A stretch of DNA of 37,845 bases, from NCBI GenBank assembly GCA_902776605.1, contig CACYQQ010000005.1, positions 1-37,845 on the forward strand. Direction: 5' to 3'. This DNA comes from an uncultured Bacteroidales bacterium. GTDB lineage: Bacteria > Bacteroidota > Bacteroidia > Bacteroidales > UBA3663. A model generated the notes under the pieces. That model made no database searches. It was not told the DNA's origin and saw only the letters and a program-made list of their open reading frames with translations. The translations under genes and the position numbers were made by a program. Shown piece after piece: positions 6,835 through 17,416 of this stretch. Every line of letters starts with the position of its first letter. Positions within the stretch are counted from its first letter, which is position 1.

Positions 6835-8478
6835 TCAGTTGAACCACACATACAGCGCCACCATCACCACGGCAAGGGCAATCCACGATGCCCAGACACT
6901 GGGCTGCATCGGTTCTTGGATGCAACGCATGTCCTGTCGGTGGCGAGGCGACTTGTCGCACAGGCTGATGATGACCATCGAAACAATCAGCAGCACAAAG
7001 AGATAGAACGACAGGAGCATGAAGTGCGGCCAACGGATGACACCTGTCACCAGACCGAACTCGGCCGACATCACGGAGGCTGGAATCACTCCATCGGGCA
7101 TGGCGTAATAAAGTATGCCCACCAGGAGACACACCGCCGTGCCGAAGGTCAACGTCAGGTTGGCAGCCAACGGAGTGCAACGTTTCCAGAAGACGCCCAT
7201 CACGAAGACGGCAGCCATGGGCGGAGCGATGAACGAGAGCACCGACTGGAAGATATTGAACAACGGAATATCCTGAATGAGGTCGATTGCCACGCAGATG
7301 ACGATGCTCACCAGGGCACCCAGGATGGTGACAATGTGCGACGTGCGACGAATCTGTACCTCGTCGGCCTCCTGCTGGAAGTTCTTGACGTAGATGTCCA
7401 TAGTAAAGACCGTCGAGAGGGCATTGAGCGCCGAACCGATGGTCGAAACCAAGGCCGCAGTGAGTACCGCCAACACCAACCCCACCATGCCGACGGGGAA
7501 GAGATGGGTCACCATGAACATATACGAATCGTCGGCCTGCGGGGTCTGCTCGAAGACTCCCGTCTTGCAAAGGGCAAAGCAGACGATGCCGGGAATGATA
7601 TAGATAGCAACGTCCAATATCTTGAGCCAACCGCAGAAGTTGGCGCCTTTCTGTCCCTCACGCAACGAACGGGCAGCCAAAACGGGTTGCACCATGCTCT
7701 GGTCGGTGCACCAGAACCAGATGCCCATCACGGGGTAGCCCAACAGGATGGGCAACCACGGGAAATCGGGGTCCGAGAGCGGTTGGAAGAGGTTCCAATA
7801 GTGCACCGGCACAATGTCGGGGTTGGCCAATTGGTCAATGCCTCCCACGAACGAGCCGTCGCCCAACTTGACGATGCCCGCCAGGGTAAGCACGGTCGAG
7901 ACCACAATGAGCAACGTCATCTGATAAACATTGGTATAGGCCACCGCCCTCAACCCGCCCAACATCGTGAAGAAGGCTGAGATGGCCAACAGCAACAGCG
8001 CCGACCAGAACATCGGGATGCCGAACAACTGTCGGATGAGCACGCCTCCGGCGAACAGCGTCAGCGCCAACCACGAGATCAGGATAGTCACAATGGTGTA
8101 CCACGCCAACATCGTCCGCGTCGATGACCCGAACCGCCGTCCCATGAACTCCGGCAGTGTCGAGATTCCCTCCCCTAAGTACCTGGGAGCGAAGACGAAA
8201 GCCAACAGGGCGATGAAGACAAACGCATACCACGCATAGTTGCCCGACACCACTCCGGCTGCAAAACCGCTGGAGCACGACGCTATCAACATCGACGGCC
8301 CCACATTGGTACCCCACATGCTGAGTCCGATGTGGTGCCAACTGAGCGACCGACTGGCCAGGAAGGCACCCTTACCCCCCTGCTTCTGCTGGCGCGATGC
8401 CCACAATCCGATGGCGAGCAGCACCACGAAATAGATGGCCAAGATGGCCCAATCGACAAAATGCAGTTGCGATGTCAT
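6835..8478 (-). CDS. Sodium:solute symporter (SSS/SGLT-like)
   Basis: The 547-residue protein has about 14 hydrophobic segments and starts with DWAILAIYFVVLLAIGLWAS, the usual first helix of Bacteroidota SGLT-like symporters. The segment GLSMWGTNVGPSMLIASCSSG and the later FWCTDQSMVQPVLAARSL match the sugar-transporter subgroup. Such proteins import sugars, inositol or sialic acid with sodium. Two glycan-enzyme loci lie nearby (GH43 at the left edge, GH31 and beta-helix genes to the right), so a sugar substrate is plausible but not shown. The ATG at 8476-8478 follows a -7 box by about 100 bases. Confidence 0.88.
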   Translation of the reverse strand: MTSQLHFVDWAILAIYFVVLLAIGLWASRQQKQGGKGAFLASRSLSWHHIGLSMWGTNVGPSMLIASCSSGFAAGVVSGNYAWYAFVFIALLAFVFAPRYLGEGISTLPEFMGRRFGSSTRTMLAWYTIVTILISWLALTLFAGGVLIRQLFGIPMFWSALLLLAISAFFTMLGGLRAVAYTNVYQMTLLIVVSTVLTLAGIVKLGDGSFVGGIDQLANPDIVPVHYWNLFQPLSDPDFPWLPILLGYPVMGIWFWCTDQSMVQPVLAARSLREGQKGANFCGWLKILDVAIYIIPGIVCFALCKTGVFEQTPQADDSYMFMVTHLFPVGMVGLVLAVLTAALVSTIGSALNALSTVFTMDIYVKNFQQEADEVQIRRTSHIVTILGALVSIVICVAIDLIQDIPLFNIFQSVLSFIAPPMAAVFVMGVFWKRCTPLAANLTLTFGTAVCLLVGILYYAMPDGVIPASVMSAEFGLVTGVIRWPHFMLLSFYLFVLLIVSMVIISLCDKSPRHRQDMRCIQEPMQPSVWASWIALAVVMVALYVWFN

Positions 8479-10093: not shown

Positions 10094-10150
10094 AAAAATA
10101 ACGGATATGAAGGAAGAGGCTTAAGCCCTTTCTTCATATCCGTTATTTTT
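10094..10150. terminator. Bidirectional intrinsic terminator
   Basis: Perfect 19-bp arms (10094-10112 and 10132-10150) with an inner GGCTTAAGCC end in A-run/T-run on both sides. It lies between the convergent lipoprotein and methyltransferase fusion genes and can serve both strands. Confidence 0.9.
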
Positions 10151-10209: not shown

Positions 10210-13095
10210 TTATCGACCACTTTCTTGTAGTGAATCCTCTTTTGCTTTCATCAACTCCTTAGCGCAGGCGACAGCTTGGTTGGCATTGTCGGTGTAGGCG
10301 TCGGCGCCGATGCGGTCGCAGAACTCCTGGGTGACAGGAGCGCCGCCAATCATGACTTTGACCTGGTCGCGGATGCCGGCCTCCTCGAGGGCGCGGATCA
10401 CTTCGGGCATGTAGGTCATGGTGGTGGTGAGGAGGGCCGACATACTGAGGATGTCGGCGTGTTCACGTTTCACCGCCTCGACGAACTTCTCAGCAGGAAC
10501 ATCGATGCCGAGGTCAACGACCTCAAAACCAGAGCCTTCGAGCATCGAGATGACGAGGTTCTTGCCGATGTCGTGGAGGTCGCCTTTGACCGTACCTACC
10601 ACCACTTTGCCGAGGCTCTCCATCTGCCCGTTGCCGCCATGCGCGGTTTGGTACTCCTTGATGAGCGCCATGGCCGCCTTCATGGTTTTGCCTGCCATAA
10701 GCAGTTGAGGCACAAAGGCTTTACCCTCCTCGAAGCGTTTGCCCAGAATGCCCATTGCGCCTATCATCTCGTTGATGATATCGGTGCCCGGCAGACCGTC
10801 GGCCAACATCTTCTGCACCAAGGGAGTGGCATCGTTCGCCTTGCCCGACAGGATGGCTTGCTGCAAAGGAGTGACCGAAGGAGCCGAATCGGCCGAAGCC
10901 GGCGAAGCGGTGGTCGAAGCAGAAGCCGACGCAACAGCAGGCCATTTGCCTGGTATTCGGGGACTTACGAAGCAACCCGGAGCGGTTTCGACCAACTGAG
11001 CAAGAGCACGCATGTGACCATCGTGCGTACCGCAACAACCGCCCACGATGTTAACGAGATGTTCGTCGAACATCGGCCACATCTGCCGCTGGAAGAGGTC
11101 GGGTTGGGTAGGGAACACGCCATCGGCATCGGGAATGCCCGCATTGGGGAAGACCGAGATATAATAAGGCGTCTCGGAGGCGAGGCGACGGGTGAGGTCG
11201 GTCACCATCGGGATGTCGGGATTGCAGTTGATGCCCACCGAGAGGACATGATAGTCGGGGTGCAACTGCTTGCAGAAGTCAATCACATTCTGTCCCACCA
11301 TGTTGAAGCCTTCGGGCGTGCGCACCGTGAAACTCAGGAAGATAGGCACACGGATGCCCGTCTTCTGCATCGCAGCCATGGCGGCATGGAGATAGGCTTC
11401 ACAGTTCTGCGTGTCGAAGATGGTCTCGTTCAACACGCCATCGACGCCAGCTTCGAGTTGCGCCTCGATCTGCTCTTGGTAGATGGACATGAGTTGCTCG
11501 AAGTTGAGCGATGCGCCCTCCATCGAGATGGTCTCGCGCGTAGGACCGGCACCACCCAACACGTAGCGCGGTTTGTCGGGGTTGGCCAATGTGAAAGCGT
11601 CGGCCAACTGACGTGCCAGCCGACAAGCTGCCAGATTGATTTCACGTGTCCGGTCGGCAAACTGTGCCGGCAACGAACAACGTTGCGCATTGAACGTATT
11701 GGAGGTAATGATGTCCGACCCAGCGGCCAGGAAACGACGGTAGATGTCGCCGATGACGTCCGGGCGCTCGATACTCAGGAACTCGTTGCTGCCACTGGTG
11801 CCCGTGAGGTGGAGGGCATGGATGGTAGTGCCCATGGCGCCGTCGAAAATCAGAATACGTTGGCGCATCAACTCCTCCAATGGGGGACGATTCACCGCCA
11901 AGGGGGCGACGTCGGTAGGCGCAAACTGATTGAGTGCCAACGCCGTACCACGTGGACGCATCTTGCTGGCGCGCACCTCGGCAATGATGCGTTGCGCCTC
12001 TTCGACCTCCTGCTCGTTGTGGAAGTCCATCTCCAGATGCACGCCCTCGGTACCGATGGCCTCCAGAAGAGGTTTCAGTTCGGGCAACGTGACCCACGAG
12101 ATAAGCACACTCTTGCCCCCAGCCAGAATGCGGCGGTAGAGGTCGTACCACTTGGGCGATCCACCTTGCGGTTCGCCGACACCAGGAGTCCACTGGATAG
12201 CCTTCAACTCCTTGATTTCCAACAACGCAGGCAAGTGATGCATGGCTCCCACACCGTCCAGATGATAAATGGTATAGGGGATGCGCTGACATTGCTCGCG
12301 GATGAAAGGTTGGACGAAACGGCGATAATCCTCGTCGCTCAACATGGTCGAGAGATCACATTGCAACTTGGTCATCTTGCCAGGTGCCCATGCCGAGAAG
12401 TAGCAGAAAGCCATCTCGCCATCCTCCTCCCGGATGATGTCGTAGAGTTCGTCGAACACCTGGAAATAGATGTCGTTGATGCGTTGCATCTGGTCGAGCA
12501 AGACCTCGGGTTGCTCCATGATGTCCATCATCACTCGGTCGGTGCCCTTCATGCCTGCCAGCACGTCGATGCCCTCCATCAGGTCGGGCATACCCACATA
12601 GTAGTGGCCTTGCGCCTTCTCCTTGCAGGCTTGGAGCAATGCTTTGTGCAACAAGTAGTTGGGATGATTGGGGTTGAACTGGAAGTCGTCCGTATAATGG
12701 GGGTCGGGGTGAATCCAGATGGTATCGTCGCCCCCCTCAAACTGAGCCCCCAGAATAGCCGACATCGACCCCGGTCCCAACTGCGTGTTGGCGACAGGCA
12801 ACATATCGGCCTTGAGACAGGAGTGGCCGACATACCAATCCAGATAGTTGGCGCGCCACTCGGGGTCGAACCATTTCTGGTCATTGTCCCGAGGCACAGG
12901 GGCACCAGGGATGACATTGCCCGTGCCGAAACCCGTCGAAGTGGCCTCTTGCACCGGAGCCTCGCCAGCATAAGGTCCATGAGGCTGGACGCCCACCTGA
13001 AAGTGCTCCCACATATTGAGCACAATGCCCTTGTGGTTCCACCAATCTATATAGTGCTGTTTAGTTTCAGCCAAGTTTTCTTTCCACGTCTTCAT
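10210..13095 (-). CDS. Fusion: UroD-like methyltransferase + homocysteine S-methyltransferase + corrinoid-binding protein
   Basis: One uninterrupted 961-residue frame. Residues 1-375 resemble the UroD-like family linked to corrinoid methyl transfer (YHLDGVGAMHHL at 277-288, KAIQWTPGVGEP at 298-309). Residues about 410-705 are a homocysteine S-methyltransferase barrel: FDGAMGT at 417-423, plus the three zinc-ligand cysteines as in MetH, Cys624 (GINCNP) and Cys687/688 (GGCCG). An Ala/Ser/Pro linker (about 710-742) leads to the B12 helical cap (743-818) and the cobalamin Rossmann domain with DLHDIG (839-844; His841 as lower cobalt ligand). Unlike MetH there is no pterin-binding and no SAM reactivation domain. 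The likely job is to take methyl from an unknown donor through bound corrinoid to homocysteine in the cytoplasm. The ATG is at 13093-13095, 92 bases after GH31. No cobalamin riboswitch is visible. Confidence 0.88.
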   Translation of the reverse strand: MKTWKENLAETKQHYIDWWNHKGIVLNMWEHFQVGVQPHGPYAGEAPVQEATSTGFGTGNVIPGAPVPRDNDQKWFDPEWRANYLDWYVGHSCLKADMLPVANTQLGPGSMSAILGAQFEGGDDTIWIHPDPHYTDDFQFNPNHPNYLLHKALLQACKEKAQGHYYVGMPDLMEGIDVLAGMKGTDRVMMDIMEQPEVLLDQMQRINDIYFQVFDELYDIIREEDGEMAFCYFSAWAPGKMTKLQCDLSTMLSDEDYRRFVQPFIREQCQRIPYTIYHLDGVGAMHHLPALLEIKELKAIQWTPGVGEPQGGSPKWYDLYRRILAGGKSVLISWVTLPELKPLLEAIGTEGVHLEMDFHNEQEVEEAQRIIAEVRASKMRPRGTALALNQFAPTDVAPLAVNRPPLEELMRQRILIFDGAMGTTIHALHLTGTSGSNEFLSIERPDVIGDIYRRFLAAGSDIITSNTFNAQRCSLPAQFADRTREINLAACRLARQLADAFTLANPDKPRYVLGGAGPTRETISMEGASLNFEQLMSIYQEQIEAQLEAGVDGVLNETIFDTQNCEAYLHAAMAAMQKTGIRVPIFLSFTVRTPEGFNMVGQNVIDFCKQLHPDYHVLSVGINCNPDIPMVTDLTRRLASETPYYISVFPNAGIPDADGVFPTQPDLFQRQMWPMFDEHLVNIVGGCCGTHDGHMRALAQLVETAPGCFVSPRIPGKWPAVASASASTTASPASADSAPSVTPLQQAILSGKANDATPLVQKMLADGLPGTDIINEMIGAMGILGKRFEEGKAFVPQLLMAGKTMKAAMALIKEYQTAHGGNGQMESLGKVVVGTVKGDLHDIGKNLVISMLEGSGFEVVDLGIDVPAEKFVEAVKREHADILSMSALLTTTMTYMPEVIRALEEAGIRDQVKVMIGGAPVTQEFCDRIGADAYTDNANQAVACAKELMKAKEDSLQESGR

Positions 13096-13104
13096 AGCTT
13101 TGTG

Positions 13105-13175
13105 TTTTATAAATTATAGTTACTATAATTATAATGACTATAGTAACTATAGATATTATAGAGAATAACTAATAA
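13105..13175. repeat. AT-rich inverted repeat between GH31 and the methyltransferase fusion
   Basis: ATAGTTACTAT and its perfect reverse complement ATAGTAACTAT are separated by 13 bases. They lie in a string of roughly 9-bp-periodic ACTATA/AATAACT units. It belongs to the general class of short-period intergenic satellites seen across the window. Confidence 0.6.
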
Positions 13176-13187
13176 CTCGTTGAGCGC

Positions 13188-15461
13188 TTAGATTTCCAAC
13201 CCTTTGAAATCGGACGTAATACGCAGTGTCACAACATCATCGGTCGAATACTCATCGGTGCACTGGATGTCGTGCGACAGGAGGGGTATCTCTGCCTCGG
13301 AACGGACAAAGACGGGCATTTGCTTCAAAGGCACTTCAACCCCATAGTACCATCGACCACCTTGCCAATGCTCGCCCGTGAAGAGGTGAATCCATTCACC
13401 CTCAGGGAGATAAATATCTCGGCGGTTGTCGGAATTCATCACGGGACAGACCAAGAAGGTGTCGCCAAAGTAATATTCATCGTCGATGTGCCAGACGGTG
13501 CGGTCGGCGGGATGGTGATAGAGCAAGGCGCGCACCATCGGATAACCCGTCCGAGTGCACTTCTCGGCCTGTTGGACAATGTAGGGCAACAAGCGGTAAC
13601 GCAATCGCCACCAACGTTTTACGATAGGCGCAATGGTTGGATATTCCCATGGTTCGCGTTTGCAGGTGCCATGATAGCGCATGTGGGAAGTGAAGACACC
13701 GAACTGGGTCCATCGCACATAGATATCGTCGTGCAGCGGCGAGTTCATGAAGTTGGGCAACGAGTGGAAACCCGGCACGTCGTGACTCCAGAACGAGAAG
13801 CCCGACAGACCGAAATGCAAACCACCCTTCAAACTACCTGCCATGCCGTCCCACGAGTGGGCAGAGTCGCCGCCCCAATGCAGTGGATAACGTTGTCCAC
13901 CTGCCCAAGCCGAACGCCCCCAAACAATGCCGTCCCCACACACTTGGCGCGTCACGTCGTAGGCAGAACGTTGATAAAGAATGGAATAGATATTGTTCAA
14001 CTGCTCGGGCGTACGACCATCATGATAGTGCGCATCCATGTGAATATTCTCGCCGAAATCGGTCTTGATGCAAGTCACGCCCATCTCCAGAAGTCGGCGC
14101 AGGAGTCCTTGGTACCACTTCACAGCCTCGGGGTTGGTGAAGTCGATGGTGCCAGCATAGTCGAGGGTTGAGAAGTTGGAGCCCGAACCATTGCTCTTAC
14201 GGTTGGGACGAGGGGCAATATAATTATGTTCGACGGCTTCGGCCAACTGTTCAGCAGCCTCGGCCACATAAGGTAACTGCCAGAGCGAGACGCGAAAACC
14301 CTGTTTCAAGAGGTCCTGCACAAAGCCCTTCGGGTCGGGGAAACGCTCCTCGTTGAACTTCCACTCACACAACCAGTCGGTCTTGAACCACCCCGTGTCG
14401 AGGTGAATCACGTCACACGGATAATGCTCCTGACGGAGACGTCGGCAGATGCCATTCACCTCATCGGCCGAGAAATAGCTCATGCGGCTCATCCAGATGC
14501 CGAAACTCCAAAGTGGCAACATGGGCGAGAAACCTGTCAGCTGTCGGTAGTGATACTGGATGCGCTCGGGCGTCCCGCCTCCTATCACGAAGACATCCAT
14601 CTGCGGTTCTTCGCTCAGGAACTGGGTGGAGCGGGTCGAGTGGTCGGCCAACGACATCTTGCTATAAGCCGATGTGTGATAGAACATTGCGTACATGCGG
14701 CTGCTCATGTAGAACGGCACATTCTTGTAGCAACGGCGATTGTTCACGCCCTGTCCATCCTGATTCTTGAGTTGGAAGGTGCGACCCGAGAGGTCCATCT
14801 TGGTGAACCGCTCTCCACTGCCCACAAAGCATTCATCCGCCTGGCACTCTACCGAGAGTGTGATGCTGTCTATCTTTCCGTTCCGTTGCACATAGGCCAA
14901 CGGCAGGGCATCGTACCTTGGGGGCGAGAAATGGTCGTAGGCCGACAAGTGCACCGCCTTGTCGTTGCCCTCTGGATAGAGCGTCAGGTCGAACGTCTCC
15001 TGCGGTGGGGGCAACAGGTCACTCCAGGGGTCGAGTACAGGGGCACGGTTATCCAATCGGGCATAGATCTTACCCTCAGCATCGAGCACCACAAAGAGAT
15101 CCTTTTCGGTCTCTACCACCTGGAGAGGCAGCACCTTGACCGACGGGTCGAAACAGAGCATCTCGTCATTGTCCAAGTCGCCCGTCAAGGCAGCCAAACG
15201 TTGGTCGCTGAGCCGTACGGTGAGGCGCAAAGTCTGGTTGTTATAAAGGCGCAACAAGACCTTATGTTCCACCCTACCGACCTCCTTGTCGGCCTGCATT
15301 TCGTTCTGTTTCAACTGTTTCTGAAAAGGAACGGTGAACACAACGCCCTGTTCCGTCGCCTCCACTCGTGTGGGCCGACAAGCTATCCACAAGGCCTCAT
15401 CGGCTTGCAGATTGGGGTCAAAATCCAGGAAATCGAACAAATGATAATTGGTCTGTTTCAT
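13188..15461 (-). CDS. GH31 family glycosidase, alpha-xylosidase-like
   Basis: The 757-residue protein has the GH31 layout: an N-terminal beta-sandwich (about 1-310, with GSGERFTKMDL), a catalytic barrel (about 310-650) and C-terminal beta domains. IKTDFGE holds the nucleophile Asp468, and HWGGDSAHSW holds the acid/base Asp532. LWSFGIWMSRMSYFSADEV and the KTDFGE form of the nucleophile motif resemble YicI-type alpha-xylosidases rather than alpha-glucosidases (usually WxDMNE). No signal peptide is visible, so it probably acts in the cytoplasm on imported oligosaccharides, such as xyloglucan-derived ones. It is on the same strand as the beta-helix protein upstream and the methyltransferase fusion downstream. 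Xylosidase specificity is inferred. Confidence 0.88.
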   Translation of the reverse strand: MKQTNYHLFDFLDFDPNLQADEALWIACRPTRVEATEQGVVFTVPFQKQLKQNEMQADKEVGRVEHKVLLRLYNNQTLRLTVRLSDQRLAALTGDLDNDEMLCFDPSVKVLPLQVVETEKDLFVVLDAEGKIYARLDNRAPVLDPWSDLLPPPQETFDLTLYPEGNDKAVHLSAYDHFSPPRYDALPLAYVQRNGKIDSITLSVECQADECFVGSGERFTKMDLSGRTFQLKNQDGQGVNNRRCYKNVPFYMSSRMYAMFYHTSAYSKMSLADHSTRSTQFLSEEPQMDVFVIGGGTPERIQYHYRQLTGFSPMLPLWSFGIWMSRMSYFSADEVNGICRRLRQEHYPCDVIHLDTGWFKTDWLCEWKFNEERFPDPKGFVQDLLKQGFRVSLWQLPYVAEAAEQLAEAVEHNYIAPRPNRKSNGSGSNFSTLDYAGTIDFTNPEAVKWYQGLLRRLLEMGVTCIKTDFGENIHMDAHYHDGRTPEQLNNIYSILYQRSAYDVTRQVCGDGIVWGRSAWAGGQRYPLHWGGDSAHSWDGMAGSLKGGLHFGLSGFSFWSHDVPGFHSLPNFMNSPLHDDIYVRWTQFGVFTSHMRYHGTCKREPWEYPTIAPIVKRWWRLRYRLLPYIVQQAEKCTRTGYPMVRALLYHHPADRTVWHIDDEYYFGDTFLVCPVMNSDNRRDIYLPEGEWIHLFTGEHWQGGRWYYGVEVPLKQMPVFVRSEAEIPLLSHDIQCTDEYSTDDVVTLRITSDFKGLEI

Positions 15462-15604: not shown

Positions 15605-17416
15605 TTACTCTTTAAACACAACGTCCTTGCCCACCTGATTCTCGCCAATCTTCCTTTCGGGCATCGCGTTCCCTTGGATAGTGAAGCCGTCGGTGGCTTC
15701 GTCCAGATAGATGTAGAAAGCACGGTTGTTGGTGGCAAAGGGAGCTCGTCCCATGCTATCCAAATGGTTACCGAAGATGGAAGATTTCGGTTGATACGAG
15801 AGCGTATAGATGGCGCCACAATCGTGCAATTGGAGGCCGAAATGCGAGACGTGATTGCAGTTAATATGGTTGTTCTTCATCGGCCACCGACGACGGGAGG
15901 CTCTGTCCTTCGGAGCAGGCATCCACCCCCATCCCATACAGATTCCACTCCACTTGCAATGAGTGACTTCATTGTAGGCAATAATGGTGTTATAGACAAA
16001 ACCTGCATTGATGGCGGGAGCGCCCCAATCCTCCATGCCTACGTGTTGTATCTCGTTGGATGTAATAAAGATGTCGTGGCAAAGCCTCCGCCTATCGGCA
16101 GGCAAGAACGGAGCATGCGTCTCATGACCTCCGGTCGAGAAATCTCCCACCAAGATGGCGGTAGCGCCGATGTCGGAGAAACGGCAATTAAAGATATGGC
16201 AATTCGAAGCGGTCTCGACATAATCTACGGCACATGCGCCCAAGTGGGCAAAATCGCAATCGTCAAAGACGACAAGTTCCACGCCTTGCAGGGTGATGGC
16301 CGATTGTGGACGACCAATCCAGGCCTGGTTTTCGAGCGATGCCTTGTGAGGCAATCCCGGTTCCTGTAGTTTGTAGGCATCGATGATGGGGAATCCGGCC
16401 TGCAAGGTGACCCATCCCTCCCGATTTGGGGTAGTCCACGAGGTATATTCAAAACGGATGCCCGAGAAATAGACATCGTGCACAGGACGTTCCAGACTGC
16501 CCTCCACCTTTACCAACTGGTCGGTGACTGGGACGATGATGGGTTCCGACGGACGTGCACCACCAAGGTCGGGACTGACATAGTATATCAACCCGTCCGA
16601 AGGACGTTGCAGCCATTCGCCCGGCTGATCCAGGCACGACACATGTCCGTAGAGGTTGAACGACGACGAGACTACGCGACCATCCTCCAACGTGTCGTTG
16701 ATGACGGGTTGCGGCCAAGGATGCTCAAACTCGCGGCGACTCTCGGGGTCGTGGAACGAGATGCGGGCCTCGTCCTTGTCCATCCGTATCCCCTTGATAC
16801 GCAACAAAGCGATGGCCCATCGTTGGTGCACCAGCATCCAACCCAGGTCATCACTATGCAATAGTTCCTGATTGATATATTCTTGAGGAATACCGATCTC
16901 GCAACGCGAACGGTCGAAACTGAGCATCGGCAACAGACTGTCCTGCGGCACCAACGAGGCTTGCGGCAAACGCTGTCCTCCCTGCCACAACTGACGGGTC
17001 TCCACCCGACGACCCTGCACACGCGGGGCTTCACATACCCAAATCTGTGGACGCACCTTCGTTGGCACTCCTTGCAGTTCGGACGACGTGGGACGACGCC
17101 ACCCTTGCAACGGCACTCCTCCACACAGAGTTGCCTTGCCGGCATGCTCCGCCCGTATCGAAAAAGCATGGTTCCTCGTTCCGCTATCCTCGGGACGCAA
17201 CCAGAGGGGTTCGGTCAACAAGTAATCGCCATCGGCCAAAGTGATGGAAAAGTTGCCACGATGCAACCGACGTGCCTCTCGCACCTCCCGCAACACGGCC
17301 GACAGGTCTTGTCCTGGCTCGACGCGGATTTCGGTTTTCGATGGACCATCGGCAGCAAAGGCCAGGATGGGCCATACGAAGAGCAGGCAAGTGGCCAGTT
17401 TTGCGAAGAGTTTCAT
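15605..17416 (-). CDS. Exported right-handed beta-helix protein, GH141-like
   Basis: The 603-residue protein has an N-terminal signal peptide (about residues 1-21, cleaved near AFAA). IRVEPGQDLSAVLREVREAR begins a pectate-lyase-like parallel beta-helix fold. Later coils with the typical N-x-I/V pattern occur at about 370-560, for example FNCRFSDIGATAILVGD and IIAYNEVTHCKWSGICMGWG. Landmarks LRPEDSG, GGVPLQGW and the GWGW segment resemble GH141, a family that includes an alpha-L-fucosidase acting on rhamnogalacturonan II and a xylanase. The protein is likely periplasmic or surface-exposed. It precedes the GH31 gene on the same strand and follows rseP by 44 bases. The fold is confident; enzyme class is moderate. 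Confidence 0.75.
   Translation of the reverse strand: MKLFAKLATCLLFVWPILAFAADGPSKTEIRVEPGQDLSAVLREVREARRLHRGNFSITLADGDYLLTEPLWLRPEDSGTRNHAFSIRAEHAGKATLCGGVPLQGWRRPTSSELQGVPTKVRPQIWVCEAPRVQGRRVETRQLWQGGQRLPQASLVPQDSLLPMLSFDRSRCEIGIPQEYINQELLHSDDLGWMLVHQRWAIALLRIKGIRMDKDEARISFHDPESRREFEHPWPQPVINDTLEDGRVVSSSFNLYGHVSCLDQPGEWLQRPSDGLIYYVSPDLGGARPSEPIIVPVTDQLVKVEGSLERPVHDVYFSGIRFEYTSWTTPNREGWVTLQAGFPIIDAYKLQEPGLPHKASLENQAWIGRPQSAITLQGVELVVFDDCDFAHLGACAVDYVETASNCHIFNCRFSDIGATAILVGDFSTGGHETHAPFLPADRRRLCHDIFITSNEIQHVGMEDWGAPAINAGFVYNTIIAYNEVTHCKWSGICMGWGWMPAPKDRASRRRWPMKNNHINCNHVSHFGLQLHDCGAIYTLSYQPKSSIFGNHLDSMGRAPFATNNRAFYIYLDEATDGFTIQGNAMPERKIGENQVGKDVVFKE

Follow-up and report, generated by a model that had tools for sequence, protein, structure and literature searches.

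A predicted single-chain corrinoid O-demethylase and methionine synthase in a rhamnogalacturonan-II context in gut Bacteroidales

Results

An uninterrupted three-module gene lies beside two glycoside hydrolases

The window, by which we mean the whole 37,845-nucleotide stretch of DNA analysed here, carries in succession a GH141 glycoside hydrolase, a GH31 glycoside hydrolase, a triple-fusion gene and a terminator-like hairpin, with a sodium:solute symporter following on the other side of the terminator from the fusion (Table 1). The fusion gene opens with an ATG and contains no internal stops. Pfam profiles assign S-methyl_trans to residues 415-701 (E value in Table 1), B12-binding_2 to residues 744-813 (2e-15) and B12-binding to residues 829-942 (1.7e-28), the corrinoid module as a whole bearing its best likeness to corrinoid proteins of the MtgC/MtbC type. 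All three zinc-ligand cysteines are invariant among the homologues that possess the homocysteine domain, and the histidine of the DxHxxG motif is kept in 85 of 86 homologues. The same domain scan found neither Pterin_bind (PF00809) nor the MetH activation domain Met_synt_B12 (PF02965) in the chain, which scores 372 bits against the MetH model TIGR02082, below the curated score of 1010.85; domain content thus excludes a MetH variant or fragment as the identity of the protein.

Table 1. Features of the fusion gene and its surroundings (positions in the window)
Feature	Position	Strand	Size or basis
Triple-fusion gene (UroD-like methyltransferase, homocysteine methyltransferase, corrinoid module)	10210..13095	-	961 aa
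UroD-fold domain, aa 1-376, presumed methyl-donor (O-demethylase) site	11968..13095	-	Structural model, fold Z 20, conservation
Flexible linker, aa 379-404	11884..11961	-	aa 379-398 with pLDDT < 50
Homocysteine S-methyltransferase domain, aa 405-715, Zn ligands C624, C687, C688	10951..11883	-	PF02574, 1.4e-68; conserved in 79/79
Flexible Ala/Ser/Thr-rich linker, aa 716-742	10870..10950	-	aa 720-739 with pLDDT < 50
Helical cap and Rossmann B12-binding module, aa 743-950, DxHxxG (H841)	10246..10869	-	Pfam and profile matches
GH31 resembling alpha-xylosidases/alpha-glucosidases, no apparent signal peptide; D468 and D532 presumed catalytic	13188..15461	-	In the operon of the fusion
GH141, apparent signal peptide; D532 and D572 match the two catalytic Asp of BT_1002	15605..17416	-	
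SLC5-type sodium:solute symporter, conserved partner	6835..8478	-	1.7 kb from the fusion
Terminator-like element immediately behind the fusion gene: strong hairpin with a trailing T run	10100..10144	-	Fold z -8.7

A structure prediction for the full-length chain (pLDDT 77.5, pTM 0.52) shows three modules joined by two disordered segments, as expected for a protein whose B12 domain must visit two active sites. These results bear out most of what an earlier, sequence-only reading had described, namely three modules in a single frame in the order UroD-like, homocysteine and B12, a complete set of zinc cysteines, a B12 cap followed by a Rossmann domain with DxHxxG, and a chain containing neither a folate nor a reactivation domain.

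The N-terminal domain has a predicted UroD fold and lacks a thiol-type zinc site

Residues 1-375 match the Pfam URO-D family (PF01208) at an E value of 0.2 and 11.1 bits, under the gathering score of 23.9, and a sequence-profile search of the PDB with this domain returned no useful match. The AlphaFold2 model of the domain (pLDDT 90.8) nonetheless has a UroD fold: its top Foldseek match is MtaA of Methanosarcina mazei (4ay7), to which it aligns with a VIA Z of 20.1, and it scores about 20 against uroporphyrinogen decarboxylases. The UroD-like assignment of the sequence-only reading is therefore upheld by fold, although not by Pfam.

Inspection of the presumed active site revealed a conserved H278-L-D280 at the position of the HxC motif of MtaA-like neighbours. 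The domain does not match the MtaA/CmuA-type model TIGR01463, its His-x-Cys...Cys zinc site is absent, and no conserved cysteine follows H278-L-D280 among the homologues aligned. UroD enzymes of the O-type have carboxylates or non-ligands where S-methyltransferases carry cysteine (PMC10418091), and some O-demethylases of the UroD superfamily lack zinc altogether (PMC13222342). By analogy, the carboxylate of D280 in place of a cysteine would fit an O-methyl substrate (PMC10418091).

Fusion architectures form a graded series

The fusion occurs as a single frame in nine of the 15 genomes of the window's genus, while stand-alone versions occur at 53-59% identity outside the genus (393 genomes of the order sampled). 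A scan of species genomes yielded 313 relatives; among the best 80 of these, nearly all from gut Bacteroidales, 70 are triple fusions and eight are UroD-B12 double fusions without the homocysteine domain, one of the carriers of the double form being Phocaeicola vulgatus ATCC 8482. The UroD gene adjoins an unfused corrinoid gene in a few Bacteroidaceae, and separate genes typify more distant relatives. Conservation of the single frame across genera excludes a frame accident or assembly artefact. The architecture proves to be both widespread and graded (separate, double, triple).

On a tree of the UroD domain, the separate form branches first, and the triple fusion arises after the double one; two lineages appear to have reverted. 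The architecture labels require five changes, compared with 19 in shuffles. The tree is a quick one and has several long branches, which makes progression from separate through double to triple a good reading rather than an established one.

Two further observations concern UroD proteins outside the fusion. Distant UroD-like proteins of about 27% identity in other Bacteroidales (L035:6243-7337, L036:6309-7403) are possibly demethylases for other methylated substrates. In two families, a Gfo/Idh/MocA oxidoreductase adjoins a stand-alone UroD gene (L030:9630-10679, L033:7610-8674), its nearest models being inositol dehydrogenase, below cut-off.

Conserved partners of the fusion

Across some 90 loci, the frequent partners of the fusion are the SLC5 symporter (58), GH31 (56), GH141 (54), an MtaA-like UroD methyltransferase (48), a MetH-type activation protein encoded as a gene of its own (46) and L-fucose isomerase (FucI; 12). 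Where GH31 and the fusion are neighbours (39 pairs), their reading frames overlap in 13 cases, 12 of these by four bases, an arrangement that points to translational coupling in those genomes. In the window itself the two genes are separated by an AT-rich, near-perfect inverted repeat (13096-13187; fold z -2.8), with an operator or a weak attenuator as possibilities. An Rfam scan of the window gave tRNA only, and no cobalamin riboswitch or other element.

The operon GH31 finds its best model in the alpha-xylosidase family NF007940, at 468 bits and under the cut-off of 606, and its nearest solved structure is labelled an alpha-glucosidase. GH141 matches PF21231 (6e-37). It is a paralogue of the BT_1002 orthologue rather than that orthologue itself, and the BT_1002 pair of catalytic aspartates is kept in 48 of 48 GH141 proteins compared.

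All 44 MtaA-like neighbours compared retain His-x-Cys...Cys, the site typical of thiol methyltransferases; because of this thiol-type site, the MtaA-like protein may serve, as judged from sequence, as the acceptor enzyme where the fusion has no homocysteine domain. In about ten loci the gene immediately upstream of the fusion is FucI; other loci contain fucose-type catabolic genes. A variant operon (L047, L049-L053, L056, L060) has FucI in this position with GH31 and GH141 not nearby; GH141 is present elsewhere in the same genomes. A separate cluster (L135:7404-11847, L136, L137, L139) joins the MtaA-like gene, the stand-alone activation gene and a fucokinase/GDP-fucose pyrophosphorylase gene (Fkp) in genomes of the genus, some of which are missing the fusion.

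Genomic associations of the operon with rhamnogalacturonan-II (RG-II) utilisation genes

Characterised BT_1002 releases 2-O-methyl-D-xylose-alpha-1,3-L-fucose from chain A of RG-II (PMC10154630). The UroD domain is found in 17 of 399 Bacteroidaceae genomes, and exactly these 17 also carry the operon-type GH31 (Fisher p 3e-30); GH141 is present in all 17, compared with 44 of the 382 other genomes (p 2e-15), both p values overstating the evidence because they ignore shared ancestry. The co-occurrence holds even in Palleniella (G406), where GH31 and GH141 lie on a different contig from the fusion.

In one genome (G811) an evident RG-II locus surrounds the operon: BT_1002 and BT_1003 each have an orthologue there (1063 and 1254 bits, respectively), and the locus further encodes an apiosidase, GH88, GH28, GH78 (GH78-BNR) and enzymes of fucose-type catabolism. 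In the window's own genome, a BT_1002-like and a BT_1003-like gene, 52% and 61% identical to the G811 orthologues, sit together on a contig (C35, L189) other than that of the window. Genes of this pair (L189:722-11170, L190, L191) flank a sugar isomerase-like gene, a kinase of the FGGY type and a transketolase pair that is split; by eye, these resemble a set for apiose utilisation.

Cobalamin reactivation and other methionine synthases

In MetH, oxidised cobalamin is reactivated by the last domain. The sequence-only reading noted that a reactivation domain is missing, which is true of the chain but not of the system, as a stand-alone PF02965 gene adjoins the fusion in many relatives. Neither this activation protein nor the MtaA-like protein was found in six genomes of the window's subclade, and no PF02965 reactivation gene was found in the window's own genome, the assembly of which is about 80% complete.

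A frame of about 1,150-1,220 residues with the MetH activation domain is present in most genomes of the genus, and the fusion is therefore probably not the sole methionine synthase of these bacteria. This distribution, together with an assembly of the window's own genome that is only about 80% complete, removes a missing MetH as the reason for the fusion. The window's genome also encodes, after metF, a stand-alone homocysteine methyltransferase of 327 residues (L001:442-2451, G000:C213), distinct from the MetH-length frame of its relatives in the genus.

Discussion

A proposed route from a methylated pectin sugar to methionine

As judged by domain content and fold, the fusion holds a complete set of first methyltransferase (MTI), corrinoid protein and second methyltransferase. 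Taking the computed domains, fold and conserved catalytic residues together with gene order, co-occurrence and RG-II context, we infer the catalytic steps, donor sugar, acceptor, transporter cargo and reactivator set out below. The protein is probably a single-chain corrinoid O-demethylase/methionine synthase that transfers the methyl group of the 2-O-methyl-D-xylose of RG-II to homocysteine. Outside the cytoplasm, a GH141 of the BT_1002 type would free 2-O-methyl-D-xylose-alpha-1,3-L-fucose from chain A of RG-II, and the SLC5-type symporter would import this disaccharide for cleavage by the cytoplasmic GH31 to fucose and 2-O-methyl-xylose. The UroD-fold domain would then pass the O-methyl group to Co(I) in the B12 module tethered to the same chain, with xylose as the other product, and this module would swing over to the homocysteine domain, at whose zinc site methionine would be made. 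Re-reduction of Co(II) would fall to the separate activation-domain protein in many relatives and, in the window's subclade, perhaps to MetH acting in trans or to another reductase.

Methyl transfer towards methionine, as first proposed from the sequence, is retained as the likely purpose of the fusion. The betaines, methanol and methylamines initially listed as candidate donors are disfavoured by a context that constrains the donor to an O-methyl sugar, most likely one from RG-II.

The identity of that sugar is the point at which the nearest alternative departs. The same machine might act on 2-O-methyl-L-fucose from chain B of RG-II and hand L-fucose to the FucI next door, as the position of FucI and the other fucose-type genes would suggest, along with the Fkp gene that clusters, in the genus, with those for the MtaA-like and activation proteins. 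We consider this unlikely: 2-O-methyl-fucose is freed by GH139, which is not among the identified partners in the fusion operons, whereas the constant partner is a GH31 of the alpha-D-xylosidase/glucosidase type with exact co-occurrence, and the disaccharide from chain A would yield fucose as well. Rather unlikely, too, is a methyl ether from some other glycan, with the operon GH141 and GH31 acting on a substrate other than RG-II. The GH141 family does include a xylanase as well as endo-fucanases (PMC12786026), and RG-II enzymes are not nearby in several loci; against this stand the RG-II enzymes clustered with the operon in G811, the BT_1002/BT_1003-like pair of the window's genome and the retention of the BT_1002 aspartates in all 48 GH141 proteins compared.

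Readings that dispense with a glycan fare worse. The resemblance of the corrinoid module to MtgC/MtbC, and the coupling of betaine demethylation to methionine synthesis by separate subunits in Ruegeria (PMC12478193), would accord with a general folate-independent methionine synthase drawing on a common donor such as betaine, methanol or dimethyl sulfide. Such a role is improbable given the exact co-occurrence with GH31, an operon shared with GH141, a UroD domain that has no HxC thiol-type site, and the fact that no partner of the MttB/MtgB type was seen. Sequence cannot tell the direction of transfer, and the chain might be degenerate or work in reverse to methylate a sugar or thiol, but retention of all catalytic residues in about 80 homologues and a catabolic operon that combines exported hydrolases with cytoplasmic ones make this very improbable. 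We therefore favour demethylation of the RG-II 2-O-methyl-D-xylose. Weighing against this proposal are the sub-threshold alpha-xylosidase score of the GH31 and the alpha-glucosidase label of its nearest solved relative, the paralogous rather than orthologous relation of the operon GH141 to BT_1002, the position of the window's symporter past a terminator, and the failure to find the activation and MtaA-like proteins in the window's subclade.

Implications

We know of no established route for the removal of methyl ethers on plant sugars by strict anaerobes; the oxidative demethylation route of marine bacteria requires oxygen. The operon offers a concrete oxygen-free candidate route with a defined candidate substrate. 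If the proposal is correct, methylated pectin sugars serve anaerobic gut bacteria as a source of both carbon and methyl groups, providing a candidate tie between dietary pectin and the bacterial economy of methionine and B12. The series from separate subunits to triple fusion would likewise display the stepwise assembly of a modular corrinoid enzyme by gene fusion, and the double fusion is at hand in an accessible isolate, P. vulgatus ATCC 8482.

Relationship to known corrinoid systems

In the open-access literature searched, we found no description of a UroD-homocysteine-B12 chain or of corrinoid-dependent demethylation of a sugar ether, in keeping with the initial impression that no characterised enzyme has this order. 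Somewhat better than even, in our estimation, are the chances that this is the first corrinoid enzyme to take the methyl group from a sugar ether of RG-II, either 2-O-methyl-D-xylose or the disaccharide that it forms with fucose, and to make methionine from it in a single polypeptide.

The closest parallels each share part of the design. MetH (TIGR02082) resembles the fusion in its modular chain, its homocysteine domain with Cys-Cys-Cys zinc site and its swinging B12 module of cap and Rossmann domain; the fusion differs in having an N-terminal UroD-fold donor domain and no folate or activation domain in the chain, its order being donor-homocysteine-B12 where that of MetH is homocysteine-folate-B12-activation. 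The UroD O-demethylase systems (MtvB, OdmB or VdmB with a corrinoid protein, MTII and an activating enzyme) likewise pair a UroD-fold MTI missing the cysteine of the HxC position with a corrinoid protein, but those known consist of separate subunits and demethylate methoxylated aromatics, whereas the fusion has homocysteine as acceptor and a predicted sugar-ether substrate. The chloromethane methyltransferase CmuA unites a UroD-type methyltransferase and a corrinoid domain in one chain (PMC13222342), correcting the sequence-only reading, which had counted the CmuA type among the enzymes with separate subunits; UroD-corrinoid fusions are therefore not new. CmuA differs in its halomethane donor, its use of a separate CmuB as second methyltransferase and its lack of a homocysteine domain. 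MtgB/C/D/E of Ruegeria pomeroyi also couple catabolic demethylation to methionine through a shared corrinoid protein, but as four separate proteins, with glycine betaine as donor, a folate intermediate and an MTI of the MttB rather than UroD type. The core methionine synthases MesA-D, like the fusion, make methionine without a folate-binding domain, but are related to MetE and not to PF02574, and their corrinoid donors are separate. Modular corrinoid methyltransferases are thus already known from MetH, CmuA, the O-demethylase systems and MtgBCDE; what appears to be new here is the triple fusion, together with a predicted new class of substrate.
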